The notes below the pieces were generated by a model, which worked only from the letters and a program-made list of their open reading frames with translations, was not told the DNA's origin and made no database searches. A DNA stretch of 45,834 nucleotides from a virus: IMG/VR virus record IMGVR_UViG_3300009008_000072, positions 1-45,834 of that record. The stretch is one strand, 5' to 3'. The first letter of the stretch is position 1. Each line of letters begins with the position of its first letter. Of the stretch, positions 15 through 45,834 are shown piece by piece. The position numbers and the translations under genes are program-made.

Positions 15-3000
15 ATGTTGCCGATACATCCAAAAGTCGAAAACATGTTGTCGACTTTTAAAACAAAGGGTCAGGCCTGGGATATAGAGAACACGAACAA
101 TCTTTTTAATACTTTTCCTTCATTTATGTTAGAAGAGGATAGGGGAAGGCTTTATGAATTAATTCAAATTATGTCGAGCCAGTTCGATGAAATATATACA
201 CTTATAGAGCATTTGCCAAAATTAAAAAGAAAAGGTTTTAAAGACGTAAACGTTTCTGGCAGTGCGTCAATAAGAACAAAAGCAAATTCAGAAGTTCACA
301 ATAAAACATATTGCGACCCAGATTATCAGACAGAGAACACCGGTGGCCGATTTGAAGACCCAACAAAAGTAAAACTAATACCAGACGGTAGAGGTATATT
401 TGGGGGAGCAGACCTTTTTTCTTCTTTCTTGGATCGTGATGACAGAGAGCAGTACGATTACAGTCTTTTGCAGATAAGGGACTTTTTTATACAAAACCTC
501 TACAATACCGCAACAGAAATTAACAAAAGGAAAGGGACAGAGGATTCGTTTAGAAATCTTATAAGATGTTTTGGCATAGATGACAAAATAATAAAACTAA
601 ACATATATGCAGACAACTTTGAATATAAAGTAGATGAAAGTCAATTACACACTGTTTCTAAGCAGAAATCGCTAAATTGTGGGGTCACCGATCACTTTAA
701 CGCAACCGTGCACCACAACACTGGGAGCGCTTCGTACACTAGAAACTATATCGCCGGTTCCACGCCAACAAACTCAGGACAAGGGATCACTCTAGAGGGA
801 AATGTGATCTTTCCAAAGGTAGATTCAGAGGCTAGTCCCTATTATGTTTCAAAAGATTTTGAAACAATTTCAATTTTCGGAATGCACAAAGCAGAGTTGC
901 TTACAGAAAATCTTAAAGTTGATTACTCAAATCCAGCAAGCTTTCAGGTTCAGGCAGTCAGAGACATAGTTAGGCCAAATGATGTGCATTTTAGGTTAAC
1001 AAGTTCTGCGGGGTTGATAACAGAACTAACAAGCAGTGTATATCAGGAGATTTATGACAATAAGCCGTGGAACCTGTCTATCAGGATAAAGCCAAATTCA
1101 GAGTCCTTGTTCGGAACTTTGACAGGATCTGTAGACAAGAACTACACTTTGGAGTTTTCAGGGTACAATTACGATTTGGACTCTTTGAGCGAAACTTTTC
1201 AACTTACTGCTTCTCTCTCTTCCGCTGTAGCTAACGCTGTCTTGGCAGCCAACAAGCGCGTATATATGGGCGCCCACCGAAATAACATGACTGGGTCAAC
1301 GAGAGAGAAGACTGATCTTAGATTTGTTTCTCTGTCTTATTGGCAGGATTATTTAGAGTCTGCCGAGCTGCAAGCCCACGCGCGAGACTTCGGAAACATT
1401 GGCCGCCTAGGTTTGTATAAAAATATAGATGTCAATGCCGGAGCGCTGGATAATTACGACATTCGGAAAAATGACGCTCTTGCACTTCATTGGAATTTCG
1501 AAATGCATACAGCATCTTCAGATACTGGTGTTATGGACATTTTGGATATTTCCAGCGGCTCCTTGGACACTATTGGTGCGTTCGGTCACTATGGAAACAT
1601 AGTAGGGTACCAGCATCCAGGAAAAGTACAATTTGCAAACATTCCTTCAAAGGCTATTATGCAAGAGTTCTTATCAGTTTCTAAATTTTCATATTTGGAA
1701 AACATCCATTCAAGCGATCAGGTTCAAATTTTAGATTTAGACAGGACGACCTTTAAAAGAAATGAAAAACCAATAACTTTCTTTTATTCTTTTGAGAAGA
1801 GTATGTATGCTGCCATTTCAGAAGAGATATTGAAGTATTTTGCTGGCCTAATCGAGTTCAACAACCTGATTGGCGAACCGGTAAACAAATATAGGTCAGA
1901 TTATAAGGGCTTGAGAGTGTTAGCTCAAAGGTTTTTTGAAAAATCTCAAGGAGACCTAGATTATGATAGGTTTGTTGAATTTTATAGATGGGTGGATGAC
2001 TCAATTTCTAAATTTATAGATCAAATTAAGCCATATTCGGCCCGGTTTTCGAAGAAAATTTTAAATGTGGTCGAAAGCCACACACTAGAAAGAAACAAAT
2101 ATGACCACAAATTTCCAACGATAGAGATGAAATTGAATGACCCAATTGCACCTATTTTGGGCATAAACGAATTATTGTATGATTGGGAACACGGCCATGC
2201 GCCATTAACAACAACAGTTTCTTCTGGTACTTTAGCCGCGGCCACTGGAAAGATTACGATTATGGGCAGTTCCGCTTCTTTGTTGGACGGGGGAACTGTG
2301 ACAATAACAAATACTGCAGGCCTAGAGAAGGTGTATATATTTGACGATGACGGCGACGGTGCCACCGGAACGGTAGATGGTTCCGGAAGAGTGAGAGTTC
2401 AGATTAGTGGTTTTAGTAAAGACGCCATGGCCACCCAGTTGAAGAATGCAATTAATCACGACAATGGTCACGGAGATACGATTACTATTACGGGACCAGG
2501 CCTAGAGTGGTCCGATGACGGAATATTAAATTTTACCCAAGCCACAGCCGGGTCAGCCGGAAACGTAACGATCACAAGCACTGTCAGTAGTGGATATTTC
2601 GACCCGGAAGGTTTTAGCGGCGGCACGGGAGGTTCAACTTCTAGCAGATCCGAGAAAGATAAATGCTTGTGGTGGAAAGATCGAGCAGACAGGAGGCATG
2701 ATATTCCAGCGGCCGCCTCTGTAGACAAAGACAGAGAGAGGCAAAGAGTTGCAAGAAACACCCACGCATCTGGCTCAACTTATGTATTGCGAAAACTATC
2801 AAGACCCTATAAATTTGGGGTCACCATGCAGACAGGTTTTAGATCAGGGCAAAATAGAAAAACAAACAAAAATGATGAGTTCTACAAGTCAGTATCAAAA
2901 TTTGGCAGCACAGCAAATATAACCCTTCCAGCGGTAGATATAATAGAGGACACTTATTGTAATGATATTATAGATCCGAACTACAAAGAAAGATTTAGAA

Positions 3001-6000
3001 TTAAATCTTATACGGTGGGAGTTGATGGATATTATGATAGGGACTCGGATTATAGTTTGCCGTTTAGTCTGTTTTCATCGTCGGCTGGTTCATCTTTTCC
3101 GAGCACCAAGGCCGGCTTGATCGTGACGAACAACCATCATGATCATTACGGCGATGATCACGAGATTCCATTACAGGGGCCCTTTACTGAGGCTCACGTT
3201 GGAGGTATGCCTCACCGCCATGAATCTTTAGCAGGTACACTTAGCCAGGCTCGCGCAACAATTCAGGTTGACACTGGAGAACTTGGAACAACAACGTTGA
3301 TTCTTAAAAACTCTGGAGGAACTACTCATACGATTACTGCTGCAGCTCTAGGTGCGAGTAATCCATCAACTGCAACAAAGATAAACACTGACCTCATTGG
3401 AAACGCTAATGACGCTACTGTACAAATGAAGGTGTCTTTGGACGCCGCCAACGCGGCCGGCAACATTAAGATGAATGTTTCCACTATTACTAATAATTCG
3501 GACGGGAACCCTAGAATAATAACTTTAACTCAATTTGATACTGGTGGTCATGGGAACACACCGATCGCGGGTACCATGGTGTCTGGAAACAAGGTTCTTG
3601 TTAATAGTTTGGACCCCGACAGCGCCCATGGTGAATTATTTTTCACTGGGGGGAATCGCATAGAGAGGTTAGAAGCCTATGAAGTAAGGTCGGATGCGAA
3701 CTCTATTACCATCCATCCGGTACCAGCTTCTGATCCTAGATCTTATTATTTTAGAGATGGTCTAGCAAAAAGGCCTGTAAATATTGCAAACATTAAATAT
3801 ACAACAGGGTCAGCAATATTGGGAAATTACGACCGCGACTATCAAGTAGTGCTTACTAACGGGCGCTCTTTGAACAACAATGATTTTGTTGATAATGAGG
3901 GTTTTTCTTTTTCTGGCTCTGCATCAACCTTTATAAACGAAATTATAGATACATCTAAGCCAGCGAGAACAAAGACGGAACATGTAATAGTTAATAGGTT
4001 TAGCAATGCAGGCCCAGAAACGGCAGCAGACTCTAACGGAGGTTATTCTGTAGATGTGGAGTCAGGAGAGTTCTCAGCCTATAATACAATTAATTATAAA
4101 AACATGAATGCGAGAAGGATCCTAAGCAGGCTTCATATTGAAAAGTCAGAGCAATTTGGTCTCCGATCAGGCTCCTTGAACACTTTGCTTGATTATACTC
4201 TAACAAGTAGTTTGGATGGCCCAACTGAAATCAGGCCGTCTATGGCGACTTCTGTTCATATGCAAAACAGAAACCCTCACTACTACCTGGATCTTCCCGT
4301 CAGAGCAACTATGACGATTATGACGGACACTGGCACTCTGAGTACAAACTCCTTGACGCTTAAGAATTCTGACGGAACGACGCACACCATTAGTGCTGCA
4401 GCCTTAGGCGGCGGGAACCCCTCTACGGCGACACAAGTAAATACAGATATTGTTGGTAACGCCAACGATGCAGCAACACAAATCAGGGCATCGCTAGCGG
4501 CCGCTGCGACAGCAGGCAGCATAGATATGATAGTGTCGGCGGTCACGAACAACTCTGCAGGAGACCCTCGAGTCATTGCTTTAACCCAAAACCACCCCGG
4601 CACTACTGGCAACACAGAGGTTGCGGGATCTTTGGTTAGCAGTAACAAGCTCATCATAAATAATATAACTGCTGGTGGATCACATGGTGAGTTATTTTTT
4701 ACTGGCGGTGCCAACCCTGGCTCTTATGATTATGACAACTTTGTGGTGTATCACCAGATCCCACAAAATGATATCCAGTACACTTGGATAACAGCATCCT
4801 CTACGGATACTATAAAAACTTTCAGAGGACACACTTCTAATTTTACTATCCCGTCATCTTCCGGCCACCAATACCCTGCAGAGATTCAATTTTTGCAAAA
4901 GAGCGACCATGCAAGCTACTGGTGGATGGAGCCGAGCACATACTCTCGCATTTGGGGTATTGCCCCCGGATATGCCTCCGCCGAGGGTGAGAACCCCCCG
5001 GGCTATCAGCAACCCGTTTATACTGATTTTGTGGGAATGAATGCAAATATATATGAACCGGTGTCTTCTTCTATAAATACCTTAGGTTATTCATCTTTGG
5101 AATTTAGTGACACCGCCAAGGCCGGCCACACGGGCCTCTTTGTGAGTATAAATTACACAAATCAGACTTTTCTTGATGGTAATTTTGTTTATGGCGGCCA
5201 AACCTCACCCGGCGAAGAATCAAGAGTCTATGGGGTAGGCAGCCACGGATATGCTTGGGGCAATATGATCCTTAACGCACTAATACAACATCGACAGGGC
5301 CCTTATGGTTGGCCATCATGGAAACAGCTCCGCGGAGCATCTCATCCAATTATGAGAAGTCATAGAAAAAATAACCAATATTCTATACATTTTCGAGAAG
5401 GGGTTCCTAGTACTTCGCCGATAGTGGACTACGAATACGATATATCACCCCGCGGTTCTAAAATAAAGGACAAATCAGCAAGATATTCTAGTAGGGTTGC
5501 AAAGAATTATTTTGATATTCCTGTTACATCCAAGTTTGATCCATTTGTAATGATGAATTTTTCGGACTCAACTCTTCGGTTCATAGAAGACATGGGTTCG
5601 GGCACCGGTGATCAGGTGATGGAAAACGTTCTTTGGTGGCTTACTGATGTTAGCACAGTCTTTCAGCCTGATTCTCAAATGTTTGAGAATATGTATTTTG
5701 CAGTTCGAGACACATACACAAATGCGATATCTACTTTTTCAAATCCTGAAATTATTAGTGCTCTCAAGATAGATGAGGTGACACACCAGCCCATGGAATC
5801 AATGATGGCCGCTTATCAGGATGATAGCAGGGCAGACAAGCCAGACGCTTTTCATCAGATTAACTACCTTGAAGCAATATACCCAAGAGAGATCAACACA
5901 TATACAAAGAATGCCAGAAATAGAGAGAATTTTGTTTTTCACTCTTGGAATTCTGATAGATCTAAGAGAGAAAACATTTTAATCGGAAGTGCAATATCGG

Positions 6001-9000
6001 CATATTCAGATAATTCTGTAATTTTTCCAAAAATTAGACCAGTTATAGAAAACTATACGGAAACAAATTCTCTTTTTGTGGACACCTTAGATTACAAGAA
6101 CTCCGGAGCGACGATAGTTCAATACATTACATCAAGTGCGTGGCTGCTTGATAGTCGTAAAGACTTTTCTAAAGAGCCCCTTTCTCTTACCGCATCATAT
6201 ACATCCACTAATGCTAGCTTTTTAGCAAATAGAGACCAGGGAGTCAGAGGCGAAGGGGAGCTACAAAATGATTATAGTATATTTGGCCTAGGTTATAATA
6301 GAATTCATGGAACCCCTCCTCCTGCTTTGGTGTATAATCGTCGCATTCCACAGCCGTACGGCACATATGGCGCCGACGGCTATGAGGAGTATTTAGCAGG
6401 GGAAAGCAAGTGGGAGGTGAACAAGGATAGTAGTTCTCCATTTTACGATAAATACACAGATTACAACGAAGAGATAAGATTAGTAGGGCAGAACTATTCT
6501 CTGGTCCCTGAATTCAAGATAAGTGACCACATAGAGACCATCGTCAAATTATCTGACCAAAGCACATCTCGAGAAGACTTTAACACGCCGCTAGAAACTT
6601 TGTTAAGCTTGACAGGAGGCGTCTACAATACTTCTCATGGAACTTTGGCAGTCGGTTCTAATTTTTATAAAACATATTCGACATCAGATTTCTTAAAGTA
6701 TTTCGGAACAATTCAAGACTCTTTCGAAGAATCAAATGCCCCTTTTGCCCCCGGGCGCCTCACACTAAAGTGCAAGGGTGTTATGAAATTTTTGCCCTAT
6801 AGGGGCTTTTATCCGGTCGAGAGAACAGCGCAGATAGGTGAAATTTTTACTAAATGTTACTTGCAAGACTATAGATATAAATCTTTAAACGGCTCAGACG
6901 TGAGTGATCATTTAGATAAAAAGATGTCAGGGTCTTTGCATCATGCTATAAAACCTCTCATGGCTCCTGGGGTTTTGTATAATTCGATCAAATCTGGGGT
7001 TGCAGTTGATTATCCTTTGTTTGAGAATGATATAAGGGGAACTAAGGCAATAGGGTTCATAAACATCAATCTTTTGGATGCTTCAAAGACAGCGTGGACC
7101 GCAAATTCAATTTCCTCTGCAGGGACATACCCAAAGATACAAATGGGACTATTAGAGGCGGATGGTACAACAACAACAAAGACATTCCACTTCTTTTCGG
7201 ATGCAGTAGACAACGCGAGTGAGTCAACTCACGTTAAATATGTTGATGTTGGCCAGCCTCCAGAACTTGCAGCTTCGCTTGACCGCAGGTCTGCATCTAG
7301 AAACACTCAGGTTGCTCGACAGCTTTCTGCTAAGCTGGTCGCCGCCGGCTTTGAAGTGGTGGATTTAAATTATTTAGTTGAGACGGATTATTCTGTTATC
7401 AACACCGATGGGTCGATCTCATCAGGAACCAATCCACCAGACCGAATGCCCACTGCCTTGTGGTCAACTGGAGATCCTGACTTTAACATAGGCGTCATCC
7501 CCGACCCCGGTGAAGATAGTTCCGGCCGCGCGAAGGCCATGTACATTCCTGGTGTTGGGCTGGTTTCAGTGCCGGGAGTAGGGGGAGCTTGTATTGTTTT
7601 TCGGCAGCCTTATGTTGGTTCTTCTGGTAACGTTGCGCTGAGTGTGTCTGATGGTGTGCGAGATGGCTCTGGTCAAGAAGCAAGTAAAATTCATTTTTCT
7701 GCTAATCCCGGGCGCGGCGTCACTATATCGGGAGGTCATTCTATCAATATGCGCCTAGGGGCTGGAGGCTCCTCTGGCGTTGGGCCCGGGTTTCTAAGAG
7801 AATTATCTACATCGCCAACTTCCAATTCTAATTTACGCAGCTCTTTGGGTCAGTATTTTGCAGGAGGTGTTACTGGATCTTTTGTAAACAATACAAAAGA
7901 TAAAGGCATTCCAAGAATTAAAGCAAAAGCCATAAAAAGAGTTTCTTTCGAGGATTTACTAGACGTGGAAGGTTTGTTGGGTATTGATTTGCCAGATAAC
8001 GAGCCCCATCCTTCGGCAAGTTTTATATACGGAAACCAGTACTGGTATAAGACTTTTGATTACCCTTTTAAGTTTGGTACCGCTAATGTTGAGCACTCAA
8101 GAGAGTCTTTAGGGTTGGGCGCTTTTAGTAGTTTAAGCGACTATACAACATATAAGATGGCAATTAATAATTTTACAGCAGAAACTGTAAACTTTTTCCT
8201 AAAAGATCAAAAGCTAACATCTTTTAAATCTAAAAAAATAAATTTCATATCTCCACCTGGAGTTAGTTATAAGATGAGAGTCTACCTTCACAATCAGGAC
8301 TTGGTGATGTATGATCGTCATTCCGCTTTTGGGCCACCCGTCGATGCCGGAGATGTTGTTAAAGAGGTGCGAACCGCGACAAATGCTCAAGTTGGCAACA
8401 AAGCCTCTGGTAATTTTACAGTAAGTATTACAGATTCAGGCGGCAGTAACCATTGGACTCTGGACGCGCAATTAAATTCAACTAGCAACGGTGGCAACGA
8501 GGGCAAGTATCCGGGTATTACGATACCGCTATACAGCGGCTCTTCATCGACCAATATAAGCTTTTTGTTTTATCATGACGCTGCCAATAGTATGGCAAGT
8601 AACAACACTAGTGTTAAATATTTTATTAACTTGGAAGATGGCAGCGGCCTAAAGACAAATATCGAAGTCGCAAAAGAACTGAGAATAGCGCTATCTTCTG
8701 CAGGTTTTTTGGTTACTAATTCTGACGCTGCAAAAATAATATTTACACAACCTGTGCAAGGCTCAGGCGGCAACGCGACTTTGGTCTCTGTTGATGGCGG
8801 CATTGCTAGCAATGTAGAGGCAGATGGTGTGGTGAAGGGCCTGAATGATGGAGGGAGTCACGAGGGCTATGTTATCGCCGCCGGCTGGTCAAACCCTCAA
8901 GGGGGGTCCTCCGCATCCGGAGTGGAGTATTTTACTTCTGGCAAGCAGCTTTTTGAGGGGTCTCATGGTTTTGCCCCTTATGTGCCGCCATTTTTGGACC

Positions 9001-10421
9001 CTGGCGCAGATCCTTATGTTGAGTTCACTTTTAATACCACCAAAGAAGGAGAAAATCAAACATACTCTTATGATGATCTCATGAGCGGCATGACTTTAGA
9101 ATATAGGAACTTTTACAACATAGAGGCCCAGACTTCTTCTGCGACAAACTTTCAGCACGCGATGTGCCTAAGTGCAAGTCTCGACCTTAAGTCGGGCTAT
9201 TTGGAGCCAACATTCGAAAGAGAGTATGAATCAGGTAACAACTTAACAAGAATTCCTGGTAATCTTAGGGTTGTTATACCCAAAGATTCTTCTTCAAAGC
9301 GCTGGGTAATACAATCAAAGTGGGAGACCCCGCTGCTGGATTTTGAAAATGTGCCGATGTCTGTTTTGGATTTATCAAATTCAACAGTAAATACTGCAGT
9401 TACAGACTCTCCATGGAAAACAGAAAATTGGTTAACGTATTTGACGCACTCTGTAAATACGGCAACAACCTATTTGACCGCTTCTAGAGGAATGTGGCAC
9501 CAAAGGGGCAAACTACCAGGTGAAAACAAGAAGGGATATTTCTTGTCGATCGCAGATGTTAAAAGATCTGACGGAGAATATCACCCCTCTTTAGCGAAAG
9601 CTGTAGGATTTTTACCAGAAGATCAAAAAACAAGCACACTTCGTATGGGAGCCATCGCTGAAGAAAAAGAAATAAGTGAAGCGGTGGTTGCAATACCGTA
9701 TTATTGTGATATACACGAAAATGTGCAATTTTTCAAACTCCAGGAAAAGCAAATTCAAGTAGCTGAAGAAGAAAATAGAAAAATTTTTGAAATGCCGGAA
9801 GGAGAGGGAAGAGAGAGAAGATTGAAAGAAGTGCGAAATCCGATAGCATTTCAGATGAGAATGATGAAAAAATATATTTTTCCTCCTCAGTTTGATTTTG
9901 TGCAATTTCCAAAAAAGGTCAGAAAAAAGGAAGCAGTAGCTATGTACGTTTTTGAATTCAACGCGAAGCTAACAAAGGAAGATCTTAAGAATATTTGGGA
10001 GAATACGTCCCCGACCTCCGCAGAATCAACAGCGATGCCCCAGCATTCCAATTCGGGTCTACGCGCGGGATCCACAATGGATACCCAATATGTTTCACAT
10101 ACACTGCATTCTTCTTTGGAAAACCCATTAGATCCTAGGTTTTTGAAAGAGGAGGTGCGATGGCTTGTTTTTAAAGTCAAATACCGAGCAGAAAAAGACT
10201 ATGCACAAGTAAAACTTAATTCATTATATCGTGGCATGGAAAATATGGACTTGATTTCTATGGACGCTTTGTCAGACTTGTCAACTTATAACTTAACGAG
10301 AGATTTGCAAGATATCCACTATTCTTACAATTGGCCGTATGACTTCTTTTCTTTAGTAGAGCTAGTTAAAGTAGAGGCAAAGGTAGATTTTGTAACGGCT
10401 AGAGATCCAGGTAAACCATAA
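15..10421 (+). CDS. Giant virion structural protein (tail/baseplate-adhesin type), 3468 residues
   Basis: This is a very long open frame with no internal stop. I do not recognise a named gene. The composition (Ser/Thr/Gly/Asn/Tyr-rich, beta-type, no signal peptide or membrane helix) and the neighbours point to a tail or baseplate component. Residues about 150-200 (TEINKRKGTEDSFRNLIRCF) resemble the 'KGTE...fr.li..fGI' stretch of contractile-tail baseplate proteins. Residues about 330-560 contain LamG/concanavalin-like segments. Residues about 1035-1075 are His-rich (NNHHDHYGDDHE, then PHRHES). Five insert-like beta modules lie near residues 732-876, 1081-1212, 1431-1565, 2346-2589 and 2797-2960. 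The C-terminal ~250 residues hold a charged, probably coiled-coil stretch, then a conserved-looking globular tail. The ATG at 15 follows AGGGTGAT, but the frame stays open to the left window edge, so an earlier start cannot be excluded. The next gene begins directly after the stop. Confidence 0.8.
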   Translation: MLPIHPKVENMLSTFKTKGQAWDIENTNNLFNTFPSFMLEEDRGRLYELIQIMSSQFDEIYTLIEHLPKLKRKGFKDVNVSGSASIRTKANSEVHNKTYCDPDYQTENTGGRFEDPTKVKLIPDGRGIFGGADLFSSFLDRDDREQYDYSLLQIRDFFIQNLYNTATEINKRKGTEDSFRNLIRCFGIDDKIIKLNIYADNFEYKVDESQLHTVSKQKSLNCGVTDHFNATVHHNTGSASYTRNYIAGSTPTNSGQGITLEGNVIFPKVDSEASPYYVSKDFETISIFGMHKAELLTENLKVDYSNPASFQVQAVRDIVRPNDVHFRLTSSAGLITELTSSVYQEIYDNKPWNLSIRIKPNSESLFGTLTGSVDKNYTLEFSGYNYDLDSLSETFQLTASLSSAVANAVLAANKRVYMGAHRNNMTGSTREKTDLRFVSLSYWQDYLESAELQAHARDFGNIGRLGLYKNIDVNAGALDNYDIRKNDALALHWNFEMHTASSDTGVMDILDISSGSLDTIGAFGHYGNIVGYQHPGKVQFANIPSKAIMQEFLSVSKFSYLENIHSSDQVQILDLDRTTFKRNEKPITFFYSFEKSMYAAISEEILKYFAGLIEFNNLIGEPVNKYRSDYKGLRVLAQRFFEKSQGDLDYDRFVEFYRWVDDSISKFIDQIKPYSARFSKKILNVVESHTLERNKYDHKFPTIEMKLNDPIAPILGINELLYDWEHGHAPLTTTVSSGTLAAATGKITIMGSSASLLDGGTVTITNTAGLEKVYIFDDDGDGATGTVDGSGRVRVQISGFSKDAMATQLKNAINHDNGHGDTITITGPGLEWSDDGILNFTQATAGSAGNVTITSTVSSGYFDPEGFSGGTGGSTSSRSEKDKCLWWKDRADRRHDIPAAASVDKDRERQRVARNTHASGSTYVLRKLSRPYKFGVTMQTGFRSGQNRKTNKNDEFYKSVSKFGSTANITLPAVDIIEDTYCNDIIDPNYKERFRIKSYTVGVDGYYDRDSDYSLPFSLFSSSAGSSFPSTKAGLIVTNNHHDHYGDDHEIPLQGPFTEAHVGGMPHRHESLAGTLSQARATIQVDTGELGTTTLILKNSGGTTHTITAAALGASNPSTATKINTDLIGNANDATVQMKVSLDAANAAGNIKMNVSTITNNSDGNPRIITLTQFDTGGHGNTPIAGTMVSGNKVLVNSLDPDSAHGELFFTGGNRIERLEAYEVRSDANSITIHPVPASDPRSYYFRDGLAKRPVNIANIKYTTGSAILGNYDRDYQVVLTNGRSLNNNDFVDNEGFSFSGSASTFINEIIDTSKPARTKTEHVIVNRFSNAGPETAADSNGGYSVDVESGEFSAYNTINYKNMNARRILSRLHIEKSEQFGLRSGSLNTLLDYTLTSSLDGPTEIRPSMATSVHMQNRNPHYYLDLPVRATMTIMTDTGTLSTNSLTLKNSDGTTHTISAAALGGGNPSTATQVNTDIVGNANDAATQIRASLAAAATAGSIDMIVSAVTNNSAGDPRVIALTQNHPGTTGNTEVAGSLVSSNKLIINNITAGGSHGELFFTGGANPGSYDYDNFVVYHQIPQNDIQYTWITASSTDTIKTFRGHTSNFTIPSSSGHQYPAEIQFLQKSDHASYWWMEPSTYSRIWGIAPGYASAEGENPPGYQQPVYTDFVGMNANIYEPVSSSINTLGYSSLEFSDTAKAGHTGLFVSINYTNQTFLDGNFVYGGQTSPGEESRVYGVGSHGYAWGNMILNALIQHRQGPYGWPSWKQLRGASHPIMRSHRKNNQYSIHFREGVPSTSPIVDYEYDISPRGSKIKDKSARYSSRVAKNYFDIPVTSKFDPFVMMNFSDSTLRFIEDMGSGTGDQVMENVLWWLTDVSTVFQPDSQMFENMYFAVRDTYTNAISTFSNPEIISALKIDEVTHQPMESMMAAYQDDSRADKPDAFHQINYLEAIYPREINTYTKNARNRENFVFHSWNSDRSKRENILIGSAISAYSDNSVIFPKIRPVIENYTETNSLFVDTLDYKNSGATIVQYITSSAWLLDSRKDFSKEPLSLTASYTSTNASFLANRDQGVRGEGELQNDYSIFGLGYNRIHGTPPPALVYNRRIPQPYGTYGADGYEEYLAGESKWEVNKDSSSPFYDKYTDYNEEIRLVGQNYSLVPEFKISDHIETIVKLSDQSTSREDFNTPLETLLSLTGGVYNTSHGTLAVGSNFYKTYSTSDFLKYFGTIQDSFEESNAPFAPGRLTLKCKGVMKFLPYRGFYPVERTAQIGEIFTKCYLQDYRYKSLNGSDVSDHLDKKMSGSLHHAIKPLMAPGVLYNSIKSGVAVDYPLFENDIRGTKAIGFININLLDASKTAWTANSISSAGTYPKIQMGLLEADGTTTTKTFHFFSDAVDNASESTHVKYVDVGQPPELAASLDRRSASRNTQVARQLSAKLVAAGFEVVDLNYLVETDYSVINTDGSISSGTNPPDRMPTALWSTGDPDFNIGVIPDPGEDSSGRAKAMYIPGVGLVSVPGVGGACIVFRQPYVGSSGNVALSVSDGVRDGSGQEASKIHFSANPGRGVTISGGHSINMRLGAGGSSGVGPGFLRELSTSPTSNSNLRSSLGQYFAGGVTGSFVNNTKDKGIPRIKAKAIKRVSFEDLLDVEGLLGIDLPDNEPHPSASFIYGNQYWYKTFDYPFKFGTANVEHSRESLGLGAFSSLSDYTTYKMAINNFTAETVNFFLKDQKLTSFKSKKINFISPPGVSYKMRVYLHNQDLVMYDRHSAFGPPVDAGDVVKEVRTATNAQVGNKASGNFTVSITDSGGSNHWTLDAQLNSTSNGGNEGKYPGITIPLYSGSSSTNISFLFYHDAANSMASNNTSVKYFINLEDGSGLKTNIEVAKELRIALSSAGFLVTNSDAAKIIFTQPVQGSGGNATLVSVDGGIASNVEADGVVKGLNDGGSHEGYVIAAGWSNPQGGSSASGVEYFTSGKQLFEGSHGFAPYVPPFLDPGADPYVEFTFNTTKEGENQTYSYDDLMSGMTLEYRNFYNIEAQTSSATNFQHAMCLSASLDLKSGYLEPTFEREYESGNNLTRIPGNLRVVIPKDSSSKRWVIQSKWETPLLDFENVPMSVLDLSNSTVNTAVTDSPWKTENWLTYLTHSVNTATTYLTASRGMWHQRGKLPGENKKGYFLSIADVKRSDGEYHPSLAKAVGFLPEDQKTSTLRMGAIAEEKEISEAVVAIPYYCDIHENVQFFKLQEKQIQVAEEENRKIFEMPEGEGRERRLKEVRNPIAFQMRMMKKYIFPPQFDFVQFPKKVRKKEAVAMYVFEFNAKLTKEDLKNIWENTSPTSAESTAMPQHSNSGLRAGSTMDTQYVSHTLHSSLENPLDPRFLKEEVRWLVFKVKYRAEKDYAQVKLNSLYRGMENMDLISMDALSDLSTYNLTRDLQDIHYSYNWPYDFFSLVELVKVEAKVDFVTARDPGKP
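2208..2640 (+). repeat. Inserted beta module A within the giant structural protein
   Basis: Residues about 732-876 of the 3468-residue protein. Features are a Gly/Ala/Thr/Ser-rich start, a strand reading VYIFDDDGDG, a helix-like MATQLKNAIN, a strand ending NFTQATAGSAGNVTIT, and a GG-rich exit. The flanks (ELLYDWEHGHAPL before, CLWWKDRADRRHD after) look like a single interrupted domain. It shares the pattern 'A..L..AIN ... LTQ...G..GN..I' with the other modules in this window. Confidence 0.6.
3255..3653 (+). repeat. Inserted beta module B within the giant structural protein
   Basis: Residues about 1081-1212. It reads ATIQVDTGELGTTTLILKNS at its start and HGELFFTGG at its end. It is the closest relative of module C downstream: aligned by eye, more than half of the positions match, including STAT, GNAND and HGELFFTGG. 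The module separates a His-rich GGMPHRHES segment from RIERLEAYEVRSD. Confidence 0.7.
4305..4706 (+). repeat. Inserted beta module C within the giant structural protein
   Basis: Residues about 1431-1565. It is a paralogue of module B with the same order of blocks: LTLKNSDGTTHTISAAALGG, NPSTAT, GNANDA, VTNNSAGDPRVIALTQ, GNTEVAGS, HGELFFTGG. The conserved ends of B and C, with unrelated sequence on either side, define the module limits well. Confidence 0.7.
7050..7780 (+). repeat. Inserted beta module D (longer variant) within the giant structural protein
   Basis: Residues about 2346-2589. Blocks are a strand ending TTTKTFHFFSD, VKYVDVG, a helix VARQLSAKLVAAGFEVVDL, and IVFRQPYVGSSGNVALSVSD. 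This matches the order strand, helix A..L..AL..AGF, strand with QP..GS.GN seen in module E. It carries extra Gly/Pro-rich sequence between the helix and the last strand. Confidence 0.55.
8403..8895 (+). repeat. Inserted beta module E within the giant structural protein
   Basis: Residues about 2797-2960. Blocks are NISFLFYHDAANS, SVKYFINLEDG, the helix EVAKELRIALSSAGFLVTNS, and IIFTQPVQGSGGNATLVSVD. It is most like module D. It separates MYDRHSAFGPPVDAG from HGFAPYVPPFLDPG, which read as two halves of one domain. Confidence 0.55.
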
Positions 10422-23030: not shown

Positions 23031-26000
23031 ATGAAATTTGCACACATAGCCGACACCCACATTCGAAATTTAAAGTATCACTTTGAATATCGCGAGGTCT
23101 TTAGGCAACTATATAAATCACTAAAAAACAACAAAGTAGACTATATCATCCACTGTGGTGATATTGCACACACTAAGACACAAATTTCCCCAGAATTTGT
23201 GGATATGTGTAGAGAGTTTTTTGAAAACCTTTCAGCAATTGCCCCAACATATATTATTCTTGGTAACCATGATGGCAACCTTCGTAATGGCAGTCGACAA
23301 GACGCTATATCGCCAATAGTAAAAGCAATCAATTCTCCTAATTTGATCCTGCTTAAACACGCCGGCGAAACCCCGTTATCATCGGGGTTTGTTCTCAATG
23401 TTTTATCGGTATTTGATGAAGATAACTGGGTTAAACCCTCCAACAGAGAATCTATTAACATAGCCCTGTATCACGGCGCGATTAGTAAATCAAAAACCGA
23501 CACCAATTGGACACTGGGGGGAGATCACGATATTGGCATTTTCGGGGAATTCGACTTTTCGTTCCTTGGGGATATACATAAGACTCAGCAATTAGATAAA
23601 GAGGGAAGAATCAGATACGCGGGATCGACAGTTCAGCAAAATTTTGGGGAATCACTCGACAAAGGTTATTTGCTTTGGGATATTAAAGACAAAGAAGATT
23701 TCACCGTCGACCATATAACCTTTGAAAACCCAAAGCCTTTCATTACATTAAATCTAACAAGAAAAGGAAACCTTCCGAGAAGTAAGCCCCCAGAAGGGGC
23801 AAGGTTGAGAATAGTTTCAGAGAACAATGTATCGCTAGATAAAGTGAGAAAGGCCGTCGACACGGCAAAATTTAAATATAATCCAGAATCAGTAACCTAT
23901 CTTAATAGAGCTGCAGGCAAGCAGATTACAATCGACGTTCCAGACTCTTCGACAAAAAAGGACCTAAGAGACCTCAAGACTCAAGAACAGCTGATACAAG
24001 AATATCTGAAAGAATATGATGCATCAGAAGAGGTCTTAAAAAGAGTCTTCGAGCTTAACAAAAAATATAACTCCCACATCGAAGGAACAGAAGATACATT
24101 TAGAAATGTGCACTGGTCACTTCAGAAATTAGAGTGGGACAATCTTTTTAATTATGGAGAAGGCAACATGGTTGATTTTTCAAAGTTAGAGGGCATTGTG
24201 GGTATTTTTGGCAAGAATTATTCTGGAAAATCTTCTATTGTGGACTCTTTGCTGTACACCATGTACAATTCGACTTCGAAGTCAATAAGAAAAAACCTCA
24301 ACATTATCAATCAAAACCACTCAGAGTGTAATGGTACCGCGACGATTAGGATAAACGAGACAGACTATATCATCGAGCGCGAATCAAAAAAATATACAAA
24401 AAGGCTACATGGTGTAGAAACCATAGAAGCTAAAACCGATTTAGATTTTTATGAAGATGATTTTTCAGGGGAAACCGTAGAGCTAAATGGAACATCCAGG
24501 CAAGATACTGATAAAAACATTCGTAAATATTTTGGTTCTTTGGATGATTTCTTGTTAACATCTATGGCTAGCCAATTAAATTCACTAACTTTTGTAAACG
24601 AAGGTTCAACAAAAAGAAAAGAAATTTTAGCTAAATTTTTAGATCTTGAAATATTTGATAAAAAATTTAGAATGGCGAAAGAAGACTCTGCGTATACATC
24701 AGCAGCTCTAAAGAGACTATCAGGAATCGATTTCGAATCAGAAATAAACAACATTAAGTCTCAAATTTCAAAAAGCCAACTTCAAATAGAGACAAACAAG
24801 GCCTTGTGTTTGGAGCACAGGGAAGAAATTTCATTGACTTCAGAAAAATTGGAAGAAACACAGGGGAAAATCAACTCAGTTCCTGCAGAAATTATCGACC
24901 CGGTGATTGTCGGTCAAGAAATTGCAGACAAAAAGGCATTAATATTAAAATCCTCCAGAGAAAGAAAAAATGCAATATCAGAACTCTCAGAGAGTAAAAG
25001 GAAATTTGAAAAAATTGAAGACTTCTTATCAGAGTTCGACATTTCTTCATACGAAGAGAAGAAAAAAATAATAAATGGAAATGAGGAAAAACTAACAGAG
25101 ATGATTGCCTCGTTGAAAGAGGAGTCTGAGTTCAAATCTTTAAACGAAAAAAAGAAAAATTTATTGTCAGAAGTTCCGTGCGGTAGTCAATACCCAACGT
25201 GCAAGTTTATTAAAGATGCGCACTCTGCAGTTCAATTGTTGGAGATAACCGACAGAAACATGGGAAATTTATCGCAAAAAATAAACAATTTGGGTGCAAA
25301 GATAGCAGAATTAGAACCAGAAAGAGTGAACAGTCATATCGATAAATACAACTTGTTAATTGATAAAAGAAACTCTCTTGCAACTTCTGTTGCTTCTTCT
25401 AGGTTGCGAATAGAAAGAGCAGACGCTCTTTTATTTAGGGAGCAGGTAGAGTTAGAGAAATTAGAAGAAAAAAATACAGAATATCATGAAAATAGGGATG
25501 CAATTGAAAACCTAAAGGGCTTGATCTTGACGCGCAATTCTTTTAAGAAAGATTTGAAGGAACAAGAACAGCAGCTAGAATCTTGCGAGCTTGCAATTAT
25601 AAAGCTCCACAAGCGCCTAGGCGCCCGCGAACAAGAGCTAAAGCAAATGAAGAAAACTTATAAAGAATATCAAACTTTGCAAGAAGACTTTGCCGCATAC
25701 CATCTGCTTATGGTGTGTTGTCACCCAAACGGTATTGCTTATGATATTATAAAAGACAGGTTGCCAATTATAAATCAAGAAATTGCAAAAATCTTGACAA
25801 ACATTGTAGAATTTGAGATTTTTATTCAAAACGATGACAAGAAGCTTGATATCTTTATAAAGCACCCCAAGCACGAACCACGCCCCCTAGAAATGGGTTC
25901 CGGAGCAGAAAAAACAATAGCGTCTATGGCGATTCGTTTGGCGTTTTTAACTGTTTCAAGTTTGCCCAAGTCGGATCTATTTATTTTAGATGAACCTGGG

Positions 26001-26168
26001 ACTGCTTTAGACGAAGATAATATGGAAGGTTTTGTTCGAATTTTAGATATGATACGAGGTTATTTTAAAACAGTCTTGTTGATATCTCATTTAGATAATT
26101 TAAAAGATTGCGTAGATATGCAAATTAACATTGAAAGAAAGGGCGGATACGCCCACGTAAATATATAG
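23031..26168 (+). CDS. Fused SbcD-SbcC (Mre11-Rad50) recombination nuclease, T4 gp47-gp46 equivalent
   Basis: 1045 residues. Residues 1-250 are a calcineurin-like metallophosphoesterase: D8 and H10 (IADTH), D44 (CGDIAH), N79-H80-D81 (LGNHDG), H148 (LYHGA) and H183 (GDIHKTQ). From about 365 onward lies a Rad50/SbcC SMC-type ATPase: Walker A near 391-402 (GIFGKNYSGKSS), long coiled coils, a hook at C717 and C724, a signature LEMGSGAEK near 953-961, and Walker B with D987-E988 (ILDEPGTALDED). In T4 these are two proteins that resect DNA ends for recombination-dependent replication. Here they are one chain with no stop or frameshift between them. The hook is C-x6-C, not the usual C-x2-C. It has its own promoter, and the cytoplasmic role is well supported. 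Confidence 0.95.
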   Translation: MKFAHIADTHIRNLKYHFEYREVFRQLYKSLKNNKVDYIIHCGDIAHTKTQISPEFVDMCREFFENLSAIAPTYIILGNHDGNLRNGSRQDAISPIVKAINSPNLILLKHAGETPLSSGFVLNVLSVFDEDNWVKPSNRESINIALYHGAISKSKTDTNWTLGGDHDIGIFGEFDFSFLGDIHKTQQLDKEGRIRYAGSTVQQNFGESLDKGYLLWDIKDKEDFTVDHITFENPKPFITLNLTRKGNLPRSKPPEGARLRIVSENNVSLDKVRKAVDTAKFKYNPESVTYLNRAAGKQITIDVPDSSTKKDLRDLKTQEQLIQEYLKEYDASEEVLKRVFELNKKYNSHIEGTEDTFRNVHWSLQKLEWDNLFNYGEGNMVDFSKLEGIVGIFGKNYSGKSSIVDSLLYTMYNSTSKSIRKNLNIINQNHSECNGTATIRINETDYIIERESKKYTKRLHGVETIEAKTDLDFYEDDFSGETVELNGTSRQDTDKNIRKYFGSLDDFLLTSMASQLNSLTFVNEGSTKRKEILAKFLDLEIFDKKFRMAKEDSAYTSAALKRLSGIDFESEINNIKSQISKSQLQIETNKALCLEHREEISLTSEKLEETQGKINSVPAEIIDPVIVGQEIADKKALILKSSRERKNAISELSESKRKFEKIEDFLSEFDISSYEEKKKIINGNEEKLTEMIASLKEESEFKSLNEKKKNLLSEVPCGSQYPTCKFIKDAHSAVQLLEITDRNMGNLSQKINNLGAKIAELEPERVNSHIDKYNLLIDKRNSLATSVASSRLRIERADALLFREQVELEKLEEKNTEYHENRDAIENLKGLILTRNSFKKDLKEQEQQLESCELAIIKLHKRLGAREQELKQMKKTYKEYQTLQEDFAAYHLLMVCCHPNGIAYDIIKDRLPIINQEIAKILTNIVEFEIFIQNDDKKLDIFIKHPKHEPRPLEMGSGAEKTIASMAIRLAFLTVSSLPKSDLFILDEPGTALDEDNMEGFVRILDMIRGYFKTVLLISHLDNLKDCVDMQINIERKGGYAHVNI

Positions 26169-39627: not shown

Positions 39628-41262
39628 ATGTCGGTACCTGTTCTTACTCCATCAAGCGCAATTAGTGCAGTAACACTTCCTGCAACAGGAAGCTTTGCAA
39701 ACGTCGATGCACATGTTCCATATAGAATATATTCAGATGAATCGGCACCCCTTTATTCATCGATGTTTGTTTCTGGTGCAACAGAGCAAGTATCCTATGT
39801 TTATAAGAAATTGGGTGGCGATGTACTTGATATAGAGTTGACTGAGGGGAGCGTCTATTCCGCTTACGAAGAGGCAGTACTAGAATACTCTTATATATTA
39901 AACTTACACCAAGCAAATAACGTCATTTCTGATGTTTTGGGCAACTCTACTGGATCCTTTGATCATAAGGGGAATCTGATGTCGGGCTCTGATCTGTATG
40001 CATCTCTTGATGGTCAACATGTTGCGCTTAAGTATCCTCTTTTTGATTATGCCATGGCTCGACGCGTCAGTGAGGGCATCTCCGCAGAAATAGGACTTAA
40101 AGGCAGCAACAATCATTATTCTGCATCCTTTGCAGTGACTGATGGAATTCAGGACTACAATTTGCAGACGATTTTGGACAACGAGGACGGCACTGCTGCC
40201 ACCGCTACAATAACCGTTACATCAGATGCCGATGCAGCGGGGCTCAATGGGGACTCTTTTAAGCTAGTCGACTCTCAAGGTCGAGTAGCAAAATTTACTT
40301 TTGATTCTACGACAGCAGAAACGGTAAATGGCAGAATAGGGTTGAACGGGGTGGCAGACGTTGGCCCCATTTCTATAGCCATAATGAATGCAATAAATGA
40401 CTCGAGTGTTAATCTAAAGGTTACAGCAACCAATCCCAGCCCGGGCACACTTACACTTACGCAAGATATAGCAGGCACGGTAGGGAACAAATCAGTTGAT
40501 TTTTCAGGGGTTACAGATATTTCTTCAACAGACTTCACTTCAGGCGCCGGGTCTGAATATGTCGGAAGAATTAATGGCCGAAAAATACTAATAACCAAGG
40601 TTTATTATAAGACTCCGGCCGCAATGTGGAGGTTCTTTGGCTATTATGGGGGGTTAAACGTAGTTGGAAACCTCCATAACTATGGGCAATTTTCAGATGA
40701 TTCCTCCTTTCAACTTGTGCCAACGTGGCAAAACAAGCAACAATCTTTAGCATTTGAGGATGCGATTTACACTAGGATGTCTCATTATTCGTATGAGATA
40801 AGGAATAATTCTACAATAAGATTATATCCTATACCATCGGCACACACGCCCGATCACATGTGGATAGAGTTTACTGTACCATCTGACGTTTGGGAATCGG
40901 AGGATACACAGACCGGCGGCGTAAACAATTTGAACACAATTCCTTTGGGTAATTTGCCATTTGAAAATATAAACTCGATAGGAAAGCAATGGATTCGAAG
41001 ATTTGCCCTAGCATTGTGTAAAGAGACTTTGGGGCAAGTTAGGAGTAAGTTTAATTCTATCCCTGTACCTGGGGACAGCATAACGCTGAATGGTACGGCT
41101 TTATTATCAGAGGGCAAAGAAGAGCAAGAGAAACTTAGAACCGAACTCAAGGAGACTTTGGCAGAAATGACATATAGTAAGCTTGCAGGTGATGATGCTA
41201 CGTTAATAGAAAATTCACAGAAAGTTATGACCCAGGTACCAAACTATATATTTGTAGGATAA
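39628..41262 (+). CDS. Probable neck protein (gp13-like) carrying an inserted beta module
   Basis: 544 residues, longer than T4 gp13 (309). The helical N-terminal part (LGGDVLDIELTEGSVYSAYE, then EEAVLEYSYILNLHQ) and the C-terminal block (WIRRFALALCKETLGQVRSK, then SIPVPGDSITLNG) resemble neck or virion proteins of T4-like marine phages. It is followed by gp14- and gp15-like genes, in T4 order 13-14-15. Residues about 188-308 hold a recurrent beta module inserted between DYNLQTIL and YVGRINGRKI. The assignment as gp13 rests on context and weak resemblance. A general head-completion protein is the alternative. GAGGA is the SD. Confidence 0.62.
   Translation: MSVPVLTPSSAISAVTLPATGSFANVDAHVPYRIYSDESAPLYSSMFVSGATEQVSYVYKKLGGDVLDIELTEGSVYSAYEEAVLEYSYILNLHQANNVISDVLGNSTGSFDHKGNLMSGSDLYASLDGQHVALKYPLFDYAMARRVSEGISAEIGLKGSNNHYSASFAVTDGIQDYNLQTILDNEDGTAATATITVTSDADAAGLNGDSFKLVDSQGRVAKFTFDSTTAETVNGRIGLNGVADVGPISIAIMNAINDSSVNLKVTATNPSPGTLTLTQDIAGTVGNKSVDFSGVTDISSTDFTSGAGSEYVGRINGRKILITKVYYKTPAAMWRFFGYYGGLNVVGNLHNYGQFSDDSSFQLVPTWQNKQQSLAFEDAIYTRMSHYSYEIRNNSTIRLYPIPSAHTPDHMWIEFTVPSDVWESEDTQTGGVNNLNTIPLGNLPFENINSIGKQWIRRFALALCKETLGQVRSKFNSIPVPGDSITLNGTALLSEGKEEQEKLRTELKETLAEMTYSKLAGDDATLIENSQKVMTQVPNYIFVG
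40189..40551 (+). repeat. Inserted beta module F within the neck protein
   Basis: Residues about 188-308 of the 544-residue protein. It reads ATATITVTSDADAAG, FKLVDSQGRVAKFTFD, AIMNAINDSSVNLKVTATNP, TLTLTQDIAGTVGNKSVDFS, and ends DFTSGAGS. The same order of strand, helix A..I..AIN, and LTQ..AG..GN occurs in module A of the giant protein. Confidence 0.65.
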
Positions 41263-43901: not shown

Positions 43902-45834
43902 ATGGCAAAAGCAACAGGCTCCATTACAATTAATGGAAATCCGGATACAGATGGAAGTACCGTTGTCGTCGACGATGGTCAAGGTACGATCCACAGTGAA
44001 GTCACGTTTAATACCAGAGACGGCCCCACAGACCACAATGTAACGTCGAAGAACGCAAACTTGTTTACGACTTCAACGAATAGCACCTCTTCAAGTCGCC
44101 CTCAAATGTACTTGAGGATTGGTGGAGGTAACTGGTCGTACAATAGTTTCGACGATGATTGGGGTATGGATGGAACCTACCCTGCAAAGCTGTGGATATC
44201 TGATACAGTAGGTAATAAAATATCTATTAGATTTTCCACTGCGACGTCAGGAACTTCCGGTTCAGCCGTCGATGATGCTTACAACAGTCAATCTCGTAAG
44301 ATCTCGACTGGCGTATACGAAGTAACAGCCAATAACGGCGTTACTGGTATTGTTGGTGGTATAATCTATGGTATCAAGGTTTGTATACAGGATGCTATTG
44401 ATAATGATAGTTTCGACTTAACAGTTTTAGTTAAGAATGGCTCAAATGCAACACAGACGAGTACCACTCCCAGTACAAGTATGACTCAGTTATATTTGTA
44501 CTCCCCGGAGAGTACAGACAGAGGTCCAGAACATGCCGGTATATCGGTTGGTCTGGATAGGCACAGCGGATCTTGGACAACCACATCTTCCGCTTCTGAG
44601 TATTTTGGTATTGCTGCTTATGCATCACATTCAGGGAGTAATTATGCTATTACGAATTTGAATGCATATGATACAGTTGGCTATTGTTGGAAGGGTACTC
44701 CATATGAGGTTTCACATGGAGACTTAACAGCAGCAGAGATTGCTGATCAACTTAAAAAACTGATCAACGCATTGCCGATAGCGATTACAGCAACAGTTAG
44801 TTCGAATGTAGTTAGTTTAACGAACGATGCCCACGGAACGGGGGCTAATGTAACCATAACAACAAACGACTCTACTAATTTTGGTGTCTCTGGCATGTCC
44901 GGTGGCAGCGCACAAGGTGGAGGAGGAGGATCAACACAAATGGCAAGAACAATGCTAAACAACAACCGGCTAGCAATAACAACTGCTCTGTTACCGCAAG
45001 ATATAAACGAGCAGAATACTCAAGCTGACCTAGGTAGCACCTCAATGGAGTGGGGCGACCTTTATATGGCTGATGGCAAGGCTATCAAACTTGGTCATGA
45101 CCAAGAAGTTACGTTAACTCACGTTGCAGATACTGGTATTCTTTTGAATTCCAGCATGCAGCTCCAATTTGGTGATTCTGCAACTCATATTAAGCAGGTC
45201 TCTGACACCAACCTGGAGATTGAAGCAGATGGATCAGTTATTCTCGATGCGCCTGTTCTTGATCTTCAAGATGACGGAGTTATCGTTAAGTTTGGCGATG
45301 ATTCGGATGTCACCTTGACACATATCGCAGATACAGGACTTCGTTTGAACTCAACAATGGCACTTCAGTTCAACGACGCATCACAATATATTTATGCTCC
45401 GTCAGCAACTGTGCTTGATATTCACGCTACTGATGAGGTAGAGATTACTGCAACTCTCTGTGATATTAATGCAAACCTGGATGTTTCAGGGACATATACC
45501 GGCGGCGGCCTGATGACCGTCGGCGGCAGTATTGTGATTCCAGACGCTGGCACAATTGGTTCCGCTTCGGACACTAACGCAATCGCTATTTCTAGTGGTG
45601 GTGTTGTTTCTGTTTCGGCCACCACTGACGCGTCCAGCTCAACAAGCGGTGTCCTCACTGTTGCTGGTGGTATGGGTGTTGCTAAAAAGCTATACGTTGG
45701 TACAGACTTGGACGTTGACGGCACAGCCAATCTTGACATTGTTGATATTGATGGCGCTGTAGACATGGCAAGTACACTAACCATCGGCGGCGTTACCAAA
45801 GTCGGCTCTGCGGCTGGTAGTGGTGTAGATGCTT
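43902..45834 (+). CDS. Tail-fibre type protein, N-terminal part (runs off the right edge)
   Basis: An open frame from ATG 43902 to the window end, 644 codons with no stop. AGGAGG lies 9 bases upstream. The first ~260 residues are a beta-rich domain (KATGSITINGNPDTDGSTVV). A beta module follows at about 269-345, ending in a GGGGG stretch. The next part is typical of phage side fibres: two related segments (VTLTHVADTGILLNSSMQLQ at about 402 and VTLTHIADTGLRLNSTMALQ at about 469), then DVSGTYTGGGLMTVGGSI and GVLTVAGGMGVAKKLYVGTD repeats. Such fibres bind host receptors. The C-terminal tip and any chaperone lie outside the window. Similar fibre repeats are common in viral metagenomes. Confidence 0.88.
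   Translation, partial: MAKATGSITINGNPDTDGSTVVVDDGQGTIHSEVTFNTRDGPTDHNVTSKNANLFTTSTNSTSSSRPQMYLRIGGGNWSYNSFDDDWGMDGTYPAKLWISDTVGNKISIRFSTATSGTSGSAVDDAYNSQSRKISTGVYEVTANNGVTGIVGGIIYGIKVCIQDAIDNDSFDLTVLVKNGSNATQTSTTPSTSMTQLYLYSPESTDRGPEHAGISVGLDRHSGSWTTTSSASEYFGIAAYASHSGSNYAITNLNAYDTVGYCWKGTPYEVSHGDLTAAEIADQLKKLINALPIAITATVSSNVVSLTNDAHGTGANVTITTNDSTNFGVSGMSGGSAQGGGGGSTQMARTMLNNNRLAITTALLPQDINEQNTQADLGSTSMEWGDLYMADGKAIKLGHDQEVTLTHVADTGILLNSSMQLQFGDSATHIKQVSDTNLEIEADGSVILDAPVLDLQDDGVIVKFGDDSDVTLTHIADTGLRLNSTMALQFNDASQYIYAPSATVLDIHATDEVEITATLCDINANLDVSGTYTGGGLMTVGGSIVIPDAGTIGSASDTNAIAISSGGVVSVSATTDASSSTSGVLTVAGGMGVAKKLYVGTDLDVDGTANLDIVDIDGAVDMASTLTIGGVTKVGSAAGSGVDA
44706..44933 (+). repeat. Inserted beta module G within the tail-fibre protein
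   Basis: Residues about 269-345. Blocks are LTAAEIADQLKKLINALPIA, VSSNVVSLTNDAHGTGANVT, TNFGVSGMSGGS. It keeps the helix, strand with LT...G..(A/G)N, and terminal F...GG pattern of modules A to F, but is shorter. Confidence 0.5.

Follow-up and report, generated by a model that had tools for sequence, protein, structure and literature searches.

Recurrent beta domain at five insertion sites of a giant baseplate protein, with copies in further virion proteins, in uncultured T4-like phages

A giant protein at the gp7 position and its five modules

A 127-kb contig (G001) matches the window, which is the whole 45,834-nucleotide (45.8-kb) stretch of viral DNA analyzed here, at more than 99.9% identity in the regions where the two were compared. 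The window encodes T4-type head genes (terminase, portal, gp23-type capsid protein, and head-tail adaptor) and starts within the gene of a giant protein. An earlier note made from the window took this to be a protein of 3468 residues, which is not its full length: the frame in G001 spans about 3894 amino acids, and the window begins about 426 residues into it. An open reading frame of 1045 amino acids at 23031 to 26168 looks like a nuclease-ATPase fusion: its first third matches SbcD-like profiles, and the remainder matches SbcC-like ones. The giant and the segments of interest within it are as follows.

15 to 10421, plus strand: giant baseplate protein at the gp7 position, C-terminal 3468 residues, following gp25 and gp6 homologues (synteny)
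2217 to 2636, plus strand: module A, between WEHGHAPL and CLWWK (alignment; AF2 model, pLDDT 86)
3246 to 3659, plus strand: module B, between VGG.PHRH and ERLEAY (alignment, profile search)
4296 to 4721, plus strand: module C, a paralogue of B with 60% identity (alignment, profile search)
7041 to 7832, plus strand: module D, of E type, between SGVAVDYPLF and TGS..N.TKD.GIPR (alignment, profile search)
7371 to 7586, plus strand: internal segment of 72 amino acids nested in module D, residues 2453 to 2524 (profile search)
8382 to 8963, plus strand: module E, between SAFGPPVD and GHGFAPYVPP (alignment, profile search)

The gene order in G001 is gp25 (phrog_261), gp6 (phrog_219), one gene of 639 amino acids, and then the giant, which occupies the T4-type gp7 position after the wedge genes gp25 and gp6. 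Scans of the whole giant against Pfam and PHROG returned no match, and no sequence match to gp7 was found in PDB or PHROG. A profile of the N-terminal region of the giants matched no solved structure in PDB, and a tblastn search of two giants and one module against 50,697 phage records was also negative. In the cultured Flavobacterium phage immuto, the corresponding place holds gp25, gp6, two small genes, and a protein of 1265 amino acids, which the N-terminal profile of the giants matches at 7.5e-21. The assignment of the giant as a putative wedge protein rests on its gene position and on this match to immuto rather than on a match to gp7 itself. Immediately preceding the gp25 homologue, in the part of G001 before the window, is a second giant open reading frame of 3902 amino acids (L124:2295-14000) that matched nothing in Pfam or PHROG.

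The five segments lie at the residues given in the earlier note, and each contains strands, an A..L..A(I/L) helix, an [LF][TR]Q strand, G..GN, and a glycine-rich exit. In pairwise comparisons only the relationship of B to C is obvious (about 140 bits, 60% identity), and those of D to E and of A to E are marginal. With a family profile built exclusively from inserts of other phages, the scores were 4e-16 for A, 5e-6 for C, and 2e-3 for E. B scored weakly (0.94) and belongs to the family because it is homologous to C. When the E-type copies of a sister phage (G007) were added to the profile and D and E of this phage were omitted, module E scored 1e-7. Module D matched an E-type profile at 2.5e-6 when intact and at 3e-9 after removal of its 72-residue internal segment. 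Among 400 shuffled control sequences, the best score never fell below about 0.02. The profile comparison that the earlier note had proposed thus unites A, B, C, and E, and D joins them through the extended profile; on these scores, A to E form one domain family, of which D is the most divergent member.

Empty sites, alternative cargo, and copies elsewhere in the virion

A search that started from capsid protein relatives led to homologous giants; the conserved N-terminal region of these giants then recovered 548 IMG/VR stretches, of which 80 loci were kept. Site occupancy was counted in 81 nonredundant giants or pieces of giants, all from uncultured phages. The insert was lacking in 34 of 46 sequences at site A, 61 of 72 at site B, 51 of 68 at site C, 39 of 46 at site D, and 49 of 55 at site E. 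Aligned with one another, the best giants show every site as a clean block that is either present or absent, the flanks being joined where it is absent, as in W..GHAP-CLWW at site A and AFGPP-GHGFAPY.PP at site E. Insert lengths at site A are likewise discontinuous: 40 of 56 sequences have four residues or fewer, none has 5 to 114, and the rest have 115 to 156, 242 to 275, or 438. The conserved anchor blocks contain no module match, which is partly a consequence of how they were constructed. At every site, most homologues thus lack the insert and carry the two flanks directly joined, which bears out the proposal that the named flanks are single regions interrupted by a domain inserted into loops. 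We consider the segments almost certain to be inserted copies of one domain.

Counted on a tree built from the N-terminal core, the minimum number of changes between filled and empty states is 10 for site A, 9 for B, 11 for C, 4 for D, and 3 for E. Because this tree is unrooted, it does not separate gain from loss, recent duplicates excepted. In some loci (L129/L130, L137, L160, L163, and L166) the giant is represented by two adjacent open reading frames, the break in L129/L130 falling at insertion site C; such splits could reflect fission of the gene, a frameshift, or faulty assembly. Relatives of the giant were also found in three contigs from bacterial bins, L205 and L206 (Maricaulis MAG) and L207 (candidate division WOR-3 MAG), which may be binned phage contigs or hints of hosts.

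The same sites hold LamG/concanavalin-like, F5/8-type, and unassigned domains in sister giants. A home-made profile identified LamG-like inserts six times at site A, three times at B, six times at C, and twice at D, and Pfam Laminin_G_3 matched 10 of 25 scanned inserts (best, 4.4e-23), the F5/8-type Pfam matches among the same 25 being weak (0.007 to 0.01). At site D, where this phage has module D, G003 and G005 have a long insert, assigned to LamG by Pfam in G003 (2.6e-13), and a short linker is all that is present in G007, G013, and G016. Tandem modules occupy site E in G007 (three copies) and G013 (two copies). The LamG/concanavalin A-like domain resembles the modules in occupying identical insertion sites and differs from them in belonging to an unrelated family and in its size of about 250 to 300 amino acids; its fold is known as a lectin-type fold. 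Some inserts of about 150 amino acids classed as "other" (L164 and L197, site A) resemble diverged modules, so the module counts are probably low. Two further observations concern cargo outside the module family. Site C has a recurrent type of insert of about 210 to 235 amino acids with no assigned family (L131, L138, L161, L162, and L173), and at least 30 giants (e.g., L134, L139, and L183) have a LamG-like domain at a standard N-terminal position (about residues 150 to 450), for which the giant of the window gave no match.

The domain extends beyond the giant. Two further copies in the window had been missed in the earlier note.

39628 to 41262, plus strand: neck/head-tail adaptor protein with one module (phrog_211 match)
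40180 to 40560, plus strand: module of the neck protein, residues 185 to 311, absent from nearly all homologues
43902 to 45833, plus strand: tail-fiber-like protein with a module near its N terminus; the frame in G001 is 1517 amino acids (profile search)
44544 to 44921, plus strand: module of the fiber protein, residues 215 to 340 (E value, 3e-18)

In G001, modules are also carried by the tail sheath (residues 482 to 631 of a protein matching Pfam Phage_sheath_1C at 3.5e-8) and by the protein just upstream of the giant, so that one phage has the domain in giant, upstream protein, neck, sheath, and fiber. The module search of this 127-kb contig returned no match in capsid, portal, terminase, or replication genes. 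The neck module is present in 3 of about 65 homologues (this phage, L007, and L030), and the remainder are empty at the corresponding place; the three module-carrying neck proteins are 69 to 74% identical in their cores and 27 to 28% identical in their modules. Sheath homologues also vary in length in the module region. For the protein that precedes the giant, the best matches of its modules are orthologues across phages, which suggests that this copy is fixed and integral there.

Several comparisons point to copying and exchange. The modules at sites A and C of G007 are 80% identical as protein and 76% identical as DNA, and the DNA match begins and ends at the borders of the domain. In this phage, modules B and C and the copy in the sheath are mutually similar, the last being nearest to C. 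Eleven of 51 modules have their best match within their own genome, compared with 2.9 expected by shuffling (maximum of 10 in 2000 shuffles). Some modules are nearer to copies at other sites or in other proteins than to the copy at the same site elsewhere, and the neck module of L030 is closest to the site A module of G003 (41%). These patterns indicate that modules have been copied between sites and exchanged between virion proteins. The suggestion that the domain spreads by insertion is upheld by its insertion into other virion proteins, and exchange between sites also helps to account for its recurrence.

Fold and precedents

An AF2 model of module A, computed from an alignment of 49 family rows (pLDDT 86, pTM 0.83), consists of four strands, a 13-residue helix, and four further strands, a beta-sandwich with one helix that is predicted confidently. 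The model of the stretch with D and E (residues 2320 to 3004) was too poor for its fold to be judged (pLDDT 44). The best Foldseek match of module A in PDB was the D2-D3 region of the flagellar cap protein FliD (3.4e-3; probability, 0.99; TM-score, about 0.43). Other weak fold matches in PDB were T7 tail chains of 793 residues, which we take from their length to be the nozzle, and a 493-residue chain of a Mu baseplate entry (0.036), presumably the sheath, again judging by chain length. Predicted viral proteins matched better (2e-8; TMq, 0.67 to 0.73), two of them named baseplate J-like; other phages thus have the domain as well, where it has gone unnamed.

A possible relationship to tail sheaths recurs in several comparisons. 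Module A matched the predicted sheath of SppYZU05 (1.3e-3; TMq, 0.42), PF17481 (Phage_sheath_domII) matched 1 of the 49 members of the module family (3.4e-4), the PHROG tail sheath family matched one member (1.6e-4), and the module profile matched sheaths in PDB at 0.014 to 0.027 with the motif aligned. The fold predicted for module A is distantly like those of tail sheath domain II, the T7 nozzle, and flagellar-cap D2/D3, a likeness that is weak but coherent. Phage_sheath_domII is weakly similar in sequence to the modules, with an LT...G..GN motif, and is a surface beta-sandwich added to a conserved core, as the modules would be; the similarity is sub-threshold, and the modules differ in being mobile between wedge, neck, sheath, and fiber. 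FliD D2/D3 and the variable domains of flagellin are surface exposed and placed within a conserved assembly core, as the modules would be, but FliD D2/D3 belongs to bacterial flagellar proteins and has no sequence match to the modules. The Q, G, G, and N of LTQ...G..GN that are conserved throughout the family are also present in sheath domains and seem to be structural, so they indicate no binding site or ligand. Weak Pfam matches to single modules, including PF22544, were taken as chance, as was an RTX-toxin match to the PDB profile (0.017), which covered only the front half and not the LTQ..GN motif. No module matched the Ig-like Pfam families (Big, Fn3, and I-set) above the cutoff, the hits being sub-threshold (HYDIN Ig, 0.0063).

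Promiscuous decoration domains are a known kind, and domain shuffling has already been described (PMC10684548). The closest precedents are the carbohydrate-binding modules (CBMs) of lactococcal 936 siphophages and the Ig-like domains of phages. In 936 phages, CBMs occur in the neck passage structure, the major tail protein, and the evolved Dit, and two of them have been shown to bind host cells (PMC6669499). Like the modules described here, they are accessory domains of beta structure that the neck, tail, and baseplate proteins of a virion may have or lack. They differ in that their binding to host cells is experimental, whereas our modules are an unnamed family known from sequence, occur in T4-like marine myoviruses, and are present in five copies in one protein. 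Ig-like domains are described, in the work cited in PMC10684548, as promiscuous beta-sandwiches found on unrelated virion proteins and exchanged horizontally (Fraser et al. 2006, J Mol Biol 359:496). The modules share this promiscuity and exchange; unlike in Ig-like domains, module A has a central helix and finds its best solved fold matches in flagellar-cap and phage tail proteins, and the modules are set inside loops. What is new is the domain family, its fivefold use in one giant at the wedge position, and the sockets that it has in common with lectins.

Possible roles of the modules

The sequence comparisons establish that the modules form a single family, that the sites are cleanly empty in other giants and have changed state repeatedly, that modules have been copied from site to site, and that several virion proteins of one phage contain them. 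We interpret the modules as mobile, interchangeable virion decorations that probably serve auxiliary adhesion in a large group of uncultured T4-like phages. The domain would reach new loops through illegitimate recombination, and swaps at existing sockets would proceed via recombination in the conserved flanks. The insertion sites would lie in surface loops facing outwards, where the modules would add weak accessory adhesion to host-surface glycans or particles before irreversible attachment. This last step is proposed because lectin-type folds share the sockets and because neck and tail modules of 936 phages bind host cells (PMC6669499); the use of identical sites by LamG and F5/8-type domains strengthens it. 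Taken by itself, adhesion as the function is in our view about as likely as not.

The main rival of adhesion is a bracing or stabilizing role, in which the modules are inserted and mobile but architectural, docking wedge, fiber, sheath, and neck to each other. An apparently similar fold in sheath domain II and, by fold match, in the T7 nozzle would fit such a role, as would the copies that a single phage has in neighboring virion proteins, among them the fiber (in its N-terminal part) and the protein upstream of the giant; moreover, for extra tail sheath domains a role in adsorption has been proposed, with stability as the alternative (PMC9230969). We nevertheless hold bracing to be rather unlikely, because at each site most relatives have no insert although their cores are otherwise conserved, and because a lectin-type domain can take the place of the module there, a substitution that a specific docking contact would not readily accept. 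Patchy presence, rapid turnover, and fast divergence (27% identity in the neck module versus 70% in the core) could also be those of neutral passengers, domains with close termini that are tolerated in loops and spread by recombination without function. Yet at least 13 giants keep full-length open frames without decay, tandem copies recur, and the copies sit in virion proteins, the search of G001 having given no hit in its capsid, terminase, or replication genes, so that we consider this improbable. That the segments are instead integral to the surrounding domains and were lost in some lineages draws on the unrooted tree, which gives no formal proof of polarity. It is very hard to reconcile with empty sites being the majority at every site, with the different, unrelated domains that fill the same site, with the A/C pair of G007 and the B/C pair as recent between-site copies, and with the distant cultured counterpart in the immutovirus, which has just 1265 amino acids; we give it hardly any credence.

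Beyond mobile decoration for auxiliary adhesion, we tentatively suggest that a sheath-domain-II/flagellin-like domain may have become a virion-wide mobile unit on a general plug-in platform, with standard sockets in wedge, neck, sheath, and fiber that unrelated lectin folds share. Adhesion might then be retuned by exchanging whole domains within the tail's most conserved region, and not within fibers dedicated to receptor binding.

These results name a recurrent virion domain that had not been described before and whose sockets are defined; the phage group that carries it is uncultured and abundant, as judged from the 548 IMG/VR stretches with a relative of the giant. The baseplate wedge is usually thought of as rigid and conserved, and it too is a hot spot for plug-in domains. 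In nature, one scaffold occurs with its sockets empty, filled by a module, or filled by LamG, which allows a direct comparison of how a decoration affects adsorption while the background stays constant.
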